From positions 1 through 62,005 of IMG/VR virus record IMGVR_UViG_3300044951_001748: a stretch of DNA of 62,005 bases; one strand, 5' to 3'. The position numbers were made by a program, and so were the translations under genes. The stretch is from a virus. Below, piece after piece: positions 38,357 to 38,563 of the stretch (the first letter of the stretch is position 1; each line of letters begins with the position of its first letter). A model generated the notes under the pieces. That model did not search any database. It had not been told where the DNA came from and saw only the letters and a program-made list of their open reading frames with translations.

Positions 38357-38539
38357 GGCTTTATAATGATCCTCAATGACTTTCACCATTATTTTTCTTT
38401 GATTGGAAGTTAACAACCAAGCATCGTTATAGCTCAATCCACCGTTCATGTAATATACCAAGCTAGCAATGTCTTTTTCCACAGCAATGACGTTTTTATT
38501 CATGCTCCCAAGCATGGTTTGGATCGTTTCTTGATCCAA
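38324..38539 (-). CDS. gp26 frameshift extension / small hub assembly ORF (71 aa)
   Basis: 71 residues (DIASLVYYMNGGLSYNDAW, then LTSNQRKIMVKVIEDHYKAM), resembling short proteins that follow gp26 in T4-like phages. It has no credible start: the first in-frame start codon is a TTG at 38539 without a ribosome binding site. The frame is open upstream to overlap the end of gp26, where a T-TTT-TTC slippery heptamer and a large stem-loop lie. The most economical reading is that it is translated as a -1 frameshift extension of gp26, like the GT extension of tail assembly chaperones. An independent start remains possible. Confidence 0.7.
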   Translation of the reverse strand: MDQETIQTMLGSMNKNVIAVEKDIASLVYYMNGGLSYNDAWLLTSNQRKIMVKVIEDHYKAMNPTKSQQAF

Positions 38540-38563
38540 GCTTAGGAGCGTTTGACGAAAAAA
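38504..38563 (-). promoter_or_regulatory. Candidate programmed -1 ribosomal frameshift signal
   Basis: On the minus strand, slippery T-TTT-TTC (38563-38557) is in the gp26 frame. A 7-base spacer follows, then a stem-loop: GCTCCTAAGC (38549-38540) pairs with GCTTGGGAGC (38513-38504, one U-G), enclosing a perfect TTGGATC/GATCCAA hairpin (38539-38533 with 38525-38519). A slip of -1 moves ribosomes past the gp26 stop (38544-38542) into the 71-residue frame with no intervening stop. Confidence 0.8.

Follow-up and report, generated by a model that had tools for sequence, protein, structure and literature searches.

The G–T frameshift of tail assembly chaperone genes is described as conserved in long-tailed phages "except T4" in a 2016 review (PMC5009743). 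For the T4-like phages, Vladimirov, Gautam & Davidson (2022; Virology 566:9-15) are cited for poly-T -1 frameshift signals in the genes for TAC-N, the N part of the tail assembly chaperone (TAC) (PMC12846349), and the PRFect paper cites the same study for the short and fused forms being separate genes in some of these phages (PMC10885494). For T4 itself, a table in one review names gp26 and gp51 among the hub assembly chaperones, and genetic work cited there places gp26 in the hub (PMC3004832). A first-pass annotation of an uncultivated phage sequence had proposed a programmed -1 frameshift, in the style of G/GT, that fuses gp26 to a small downstream ORF, and knew of no report of such a fusion for the T4-type gp26. 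The 2022 paper on T4-like tail assembly chaperones overturns the latter point: the gp26 frameshift studied here looks real, and it is not new, having already been reported in T4-group phages.

We analyzed a stretch of 62,005 nucleotides, hereafter the window, and located the features of the gp26 junction and its surroundings (Table 1). The gp26 protein matched PF12322 with E 5.3e-16 and 59.4 bits, above the curated cutoff of 24.5, and phrog_150 (baseplate hub) with E 5.8e-18. Its start is likely the ATG at 39390 (MNPL...), as in relatives; an MNPL-type start is found in most rows of an alignment of 16 divergent gp26 proteins (A1). The 3' end of the gene reads AGT TTT TTC GTC AAA CGC TCC TAA, with the heptamer phased for -1 slippage, as first claimed. 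The -1 frame is open from 38572 to a stop at 38326-38324, and the predicted TAC-NC fusion is 355 aa long, consisting of 278 zero-frame codons from the MNPL start and 77 codons in the -1 frame. As a check on chance, we took the 68 ORFs of the window that reach 100 aa and counted their in-frame X_XXA_AAZ and X_XXT_TTZ heptamers. We found 55, of which four continue past the zero-frame stop: the gp26 site by 72 codons, two others by 6 codons each, and one by 181 codons, the last from an ORF (23455-24063) nested in another frame of a longer same-strand ORF (22910-24667).

Table 1. Positions in the window of the gp26 junction, its elements and the divergent neighbor.
Feature	Position	Strand	Basis or remark
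gp26 / TAC-N reading frame	38542..39405	-	ORF list; PF12322 T4_baseplate
gp26 zero-frame stop TAA	38542..38544	-	within 5' arm of outer stem
Slippery heptamer T_TTT_TTC	38557..38563	-	in frame; T_TTT_TT[C/T] in 31/34 representatives
-1 frame TAC-C domain, 77 codons plus stop	38324..38557	-	related domain aligned in 36 distinct sequences
Two-tier stem-loop 3' of slip site, after 7-nt spacer	38504..38549	-	in minimum free energy fold
Divergent neighbor, 829 aa, candidate tape measure	39456..41945	+	weak profile match; RaK2 synteny

A tblastn search recovered 62 named records with gp26 relatives, all below 60% identity and mostly jumbo phages. In the first 21 loci studied (7 from IMG/VR, some of them near-identical, and 14 named phages), the heptamer and an open -1 frame were present in every case; the heptamer was in frame 10-40 nt before the stop, reading T_TTT_TTT in XacN1 and CM1 and T_TTT_TTC elsewhere, and the -1 frame after the slip gave 70-80 aa in all 17 of the loci in which it was measured. 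Three narrower gp26 alignments (A2-A4) were used to gather 41 IMG/VR loci. T_TTT_TTC was found in 35 of these, while two (L085 and L086) have the C-domain in another frame, +1; L087-L090 were set aside as weak partial matches lacking a junction, which look spurious. As the 35 include seven repeats of the IMG/VR loci L001-L007 and six that we took as copies of GAP32, CBB, BF, 121Q, RaK2 and Atu_ph07, the new loci contribute 22 of 28. Finally, the T4-like records of P-SSM2, S-PM2, HTVC008M, phiM12, KVP40 and phiW-14 all carry T_TTT_TT[C/T] with the C-domain in the -1 frame (6 of 6).

From 58 gp26 genes we chose 34 representatives at less than 80% identity and compared the codons used for the phenylalanine pair at the slip site. 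The pair itself is a conserved feature of the protein and many of these phages are T-rich, so the heptamer could have arisen by chance or through codon preference, with the small ORF as a decayed remnant. Slippery codons nevertheless encode the terminal Phe-Phe in 31 of 34 representatives (all but L085, L086 and T4), in comparison with 1 of 10 internal Phe-Phe pairs, and they are retained while the residue before the terminal pair varies (S, N, H, R, Y, D or A). The joint codon probability (log10 -20.35) counts two rows that have no site and treats related rows as independent, and we do not rely on it. Past the slip, residues encoded in the -1 frame alone are conserved among the 35 distinct junctions, defined as those outside the T4-type records: R in 32, L at position 4 in 34 and L at position 5 in 31 of 35. 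Over the same stretch the zero-frame tail is variable, and in 9 of 35 it is a single codon long. The C-domain is intact in 36 distinct aligned sequences, which argues against a decayed remnant, and the probability of this explanation is practically negligible.

The small ORF could instead be a separate gene, translated by reinitiation at the TTG two bases past the gp26 stop. Many public records do annotate it as a separate gene, and in the window the 71-residue ORF has its earliest candidate start at 38539, a TTG inside the inner stem and 2 nt beyond the UAA. The first-pass annotation had found the ORF to have no credible start, and our examination agrees: no Shine-Dalgarno core was seen by eye upstream of this TTG, and among close relatives the triplet is replaced by GGG in L054 and by TGT in L056. 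The -1 residues upstream of the TTG position are conserved, and the position of the first ATG in the -1 ORF varies from codon index 1 to 56, with some ORFs lacking an ATG altogether. It had been argued that relatives with a ribosome binding site for the small ORF and no heptamer would speak against the fusion. No such relative was found in the -1 group, and the 3 of 35 junctions with a start and a Shine-Dalgarno core within the first 25 codons of the -1 ORF all have the heptamer too. Translational coupling leaves the retention of T_TTT_TT[C/T] unexplained, and we regard it as very unlikely. A scan with PADLOC gave no match for the small ORF.

Poly-T runs can also cause transcriptional slippage, and the six-T run at the site could produce the fusion through RNA polymerase rather than through ribosomal frameshifting. 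Six T, however, is a short run for transcriptional slippage. All -1 members examined keep the run in the X_XXY_YYZ phase, and a C ends it in 27 of the 31 representatives that have the site, making polymerase slippage extremely unlikely as the source of the fusion.

Downstream of the heptamer and a 7-nt spacer (38556-38550, minus strand), the window sequence forms the two-tier stem-loop that the first-pass annotation had described. The outer stem pairs 38549-38540 with 38513-38504, giving 10 bp including one U-G, and the inner stem pairs 38539-38533 with 38525-38519, giving 7 bp. Both are present in the minimum free energy fold, at -25.7 kcal/mol with z -6.57, and none of 200 shuffled sequences was as stable. 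Across the four distinct close relatives, pairing is kept in every cell of the outer helix and in 79% of those of the inner, and covariation analysis of the same four gave no double-sided change and no excess over shuffles. We then folded 41 distinct junction regions and found a mean z of -1.45, with 14 below -2. These low values came from the window clade, PAC2, XaC1, 121Q, Phosso, Atu_ph07, XacN1, P-SSM2, S-PM2, phiW-14 and L083, with the stems of the window and of L057 below -6; among the 41 regions, the stem was absent from the GAP32, CBB and Munch types. With 14 of 41 regions below -2 and these types devoid of it, we rejected the stem as a family-wide element, and it is best seen as a lineage-specific stimulator. 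Of the two elements whose conservation across related phages had been proposed as a check, the heptamer thus held up and the stem did not. A search of positions 38200-38800 against Rfam gave one subthreshold match, to psRNA14 (25.2 bits against a gathering threshold of 60), which we took as chance.

The conserved site, the conserved -1 coding and the homology of the N part to T4 gp26 and gp51 make it highly probable that gp26 is the TAC-N of a tail assembly chaperone, that a -1 slip yields TAC-NC, and that the T4 equivalent is the pair of separate genes 26 and 51. On comparative evidence, the conserved junction appears to be in use. We infer the slippage itself, its rate and the binding roles from these patterns. 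A minority of ribosomes would slip -1 at T_TTT_TTC, helped in the window lineage by the stem-loop, bypass the UAA and append the 77-residue TAC-C. On the model of lambda gpG/gpGT, we would expect the N part to bind along the tape measure protein and the scarcer NC copies to recruit tail tube subunits through their C part, after which TAC-N and TAC-NC would both leave the tail. T4 would make the same two products from gene 26 (N only) and gene 51 (N plus C). The genetic work that places gp26 in the T4 hub and the CBB record, which labels its gp26 a structural protein, count against a pure chaperone that leaves the virion.

The relationship to T4 was studied with profiles. PF12322 matches both T4 gp26 (residues 1-206) and T4 gp51 (residues 1-201 of 249), and phrog_634 ("baseplate hub assembly catalyst") matches the C part of gp51 as well as the -1 ORF of each of the six T4-like records. 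Among five jumbo phage records, phrog_634 had no match in four and a weak match elsewhere in Atu_ph07 (E 0.028); 2 of 14 controls matched this profile at E <= 1. A single comparison of the jumbo C-domain profile against the T4-type C-domain profile gave moderate support, with a probability of 78% and E 1.8e-5 over 35 columns, and hhalign runs of single T4 gp26 and gp51 sequences against the jumbo profiles were weak, with probabilities under 10%. The T4 gp26 gene ends in GAG TTC TTT GAG, with no slippery run, and T4 genes 26 and 51 are separate and divergent. Most simply, these sequences suggest that in T4 a second gene took over from the frameshift product. The authors of the 2022 study reportedly assigned T4 genes 26 and 51 to TAC-N and TAC-NC, and frameshifting is said to be kept in several T4-like groups.

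The reading frames downstream of gp26 have been annotated unevenly. In P-SSM2, S-PM2, KVP40 and phiM12, the -1 ORFs are entered as separate "hub assembly catalyst" genes; these genes for 53-57-aa "baseplate hub assembly catalyst" proteins lie directly after gp26 and are probably the C-terminal parts of the frameshift product. A note in the KVP40 record states that the ORF resembles 40 residues of the gp51 C terminus. The -1 C-domain ORF is unannotated in PAC2 and RaK2, the former record listing an opposite-strand ORF in its place, and in Atu_ph07 only a 40-aa piece of it is annotated. Among the phages that we examined, the small "gp51" and hypothetical ORFs that follow gp26 in jumbo phages, in cyanophages and in phiM12 and KVP40 are most likely the C-terminal parts of frameshift products.

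L085 and L086, the two loci with the C-domain in the +1 frame, belong to PF12322 by profile. A search with L085 gave 289 IMG/VR relatives, of which we took the best 80 (L097-L176); the C-domain is in the +1 frame in all 81 cases formed by these 80 and L086. There were also 24 phage records, among them BRock and other Streptomyces phages, RM378, vB_SagM-GXN1 and two uncultured records; the three examined for frame, immuto (Flavobacterium), Mel-JY01 (Microcystis) and SP-15 (Bacillus), have the C-domain in the +1 frame as well. The clade is large and mostly uncultivated. Its site is [U/C]UU_UGG in 70 of 71 distinct genes (TTT in 69 and CTT in one, immuto), and the remaining gene, that of SP-15, has TTT_CAC (UUU_C). 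TTT makes up 68% of internal Phe codons. The sequence TTC TTT TGG occurs in three distinct genes, and immuto has TTT CTT TGG. A -2 shift was considered as the route to the same frame and is disfavored, as a +1 slip in the P site re-pairs best at both of these sequences; the three genes with TTC TTT TGG are the reason for favoring the P-site +1 slip. A quick tree, which includes columns at the slip site and has T4 gp51 and phiW-14 on long branches, joined 14 UGG-type rows in one group and placed SP-15 just outside; SP-15 probably belongs to the +1-shifting clade.

We think it probable that the family has switched its recoding direction while keeping the product and the place of the site, with -1 shifting in some lineages, that of the window included, +1 shifting in this clade and two genes in T4, and that selection acts on the TAC-N/TAC-NC pair rather than on the decoding mechanism. 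The literature that we searched, in which "+1" is unusable as a term and subscription papers are thinly covered, gave no report of a +1 frameshift in the gp26 family. In tail chaperones as such, +1 shifting is not new, the archaeal myovirus HSTV-2 being described as a likely case (PMC5009743). We also recorded a weak similarity of the L085 C-domain to the Pfam family DUF6760 (E 0.00045; 20.7 bits, below the cutoff of 27), and DUF6760 may be the C-domain of such chaperones.

Tail assembly chaperone genes usually stand between the tube and tape measure genes. The order sheath, tube, gp26 family, small ORF and tape measure, which is this usual place, is seen in immuto and SP-15, and in phiM12 the gene with tape-measure similarity is the second after the C-domain ORF; the tape measure was called by annotation or by profile in these three phages. 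The first-pass annotation had put the tape measure gene next to gp26; in the window, the 829-aa divergent neighbor of gp26 is a plausible candidate for the tape measure protein. It matched phrog_14121 ("virion structural protein", category head and packaging) weakly, with E 0.0032, and the RaK2 gene in the same place is annotated as "similar to phiFL4A gp48 tail tape measure protein". With the T4 gp29 profile, the only matches were to Mel-JY01 (E 7.3e-4, at a distance from gp26), of 12 records scanned, and to one control; the window, five jumbo records, P-SSM2, phiM12 and KVP40 gave none, and given these misses and the control match, the profile cannot tell which gene is the tape measure. In phiW-14, a terminator and a helicase gene on the opposite strand, not a tape measure, come after the C-domain ORF, and in P-SSM2, S-PM2, KVP40 and Mel-JY01 the genes next to the junction are hypothetical or unnamed. 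Between the divergent gp26 and 829-aa genes of the window, at 39408-39428, ATAAATA occurs on both strands, which we take to resemble the core of a T4-type late promoter; the window holds nine ATAAATA in total, no more than expected by chance (mean 11.5).

The AlphaFold model of gp26 has a mean pLDDT of 88.8. A Foldseek search of the PDB with this model returned nothing at E <= 0.001. Comparison with the HK97 tail assembly chaperone 2ob9 aligned 100 of 107 residues with Z 6.4 and rmsd 4.6, a middling result that ranked 17th amid unrelated helical structures of similar Z.

T4 genes 26 and 51 have long been known as hub genes; these results fit the view that they encode tail assembly chaperones. 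With the +1 clade, it would be possible to compare -1, +1 and two-gene answers to the same stoichiometry problem inside one protein family. The T4 pair resembles the window locus in that PF12322 is present in both proteins and gp51 carries additional residues at its C terminus, in the place expected of the -1 domain, and it differs in consisting of two separate genes, with a gp26 end devoid of slippery codons. The lambda slippery heptamer is GGGAAAG, unlike that of the window. The lambda gpG/gpGT system is otherwise similar: the ribosome slips by -1 close to the 3' end of the gene for a short chaperone, and a C-domain is added (PMC5009743). The TAC locus of phage Adele (Vandenendeviridae/Andersonviridae) belongs to other phage families but shares a conserved -1 frameshift with a GTTTTT motif at the TAC-N end and a C-domain otherwise annotated as a hypothetical gene (PMC12846349). 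In comparison with the T4-like systems of Vladimirov et al. (2022), the window lineage is uncultivated and nearest to the jumbo phages.
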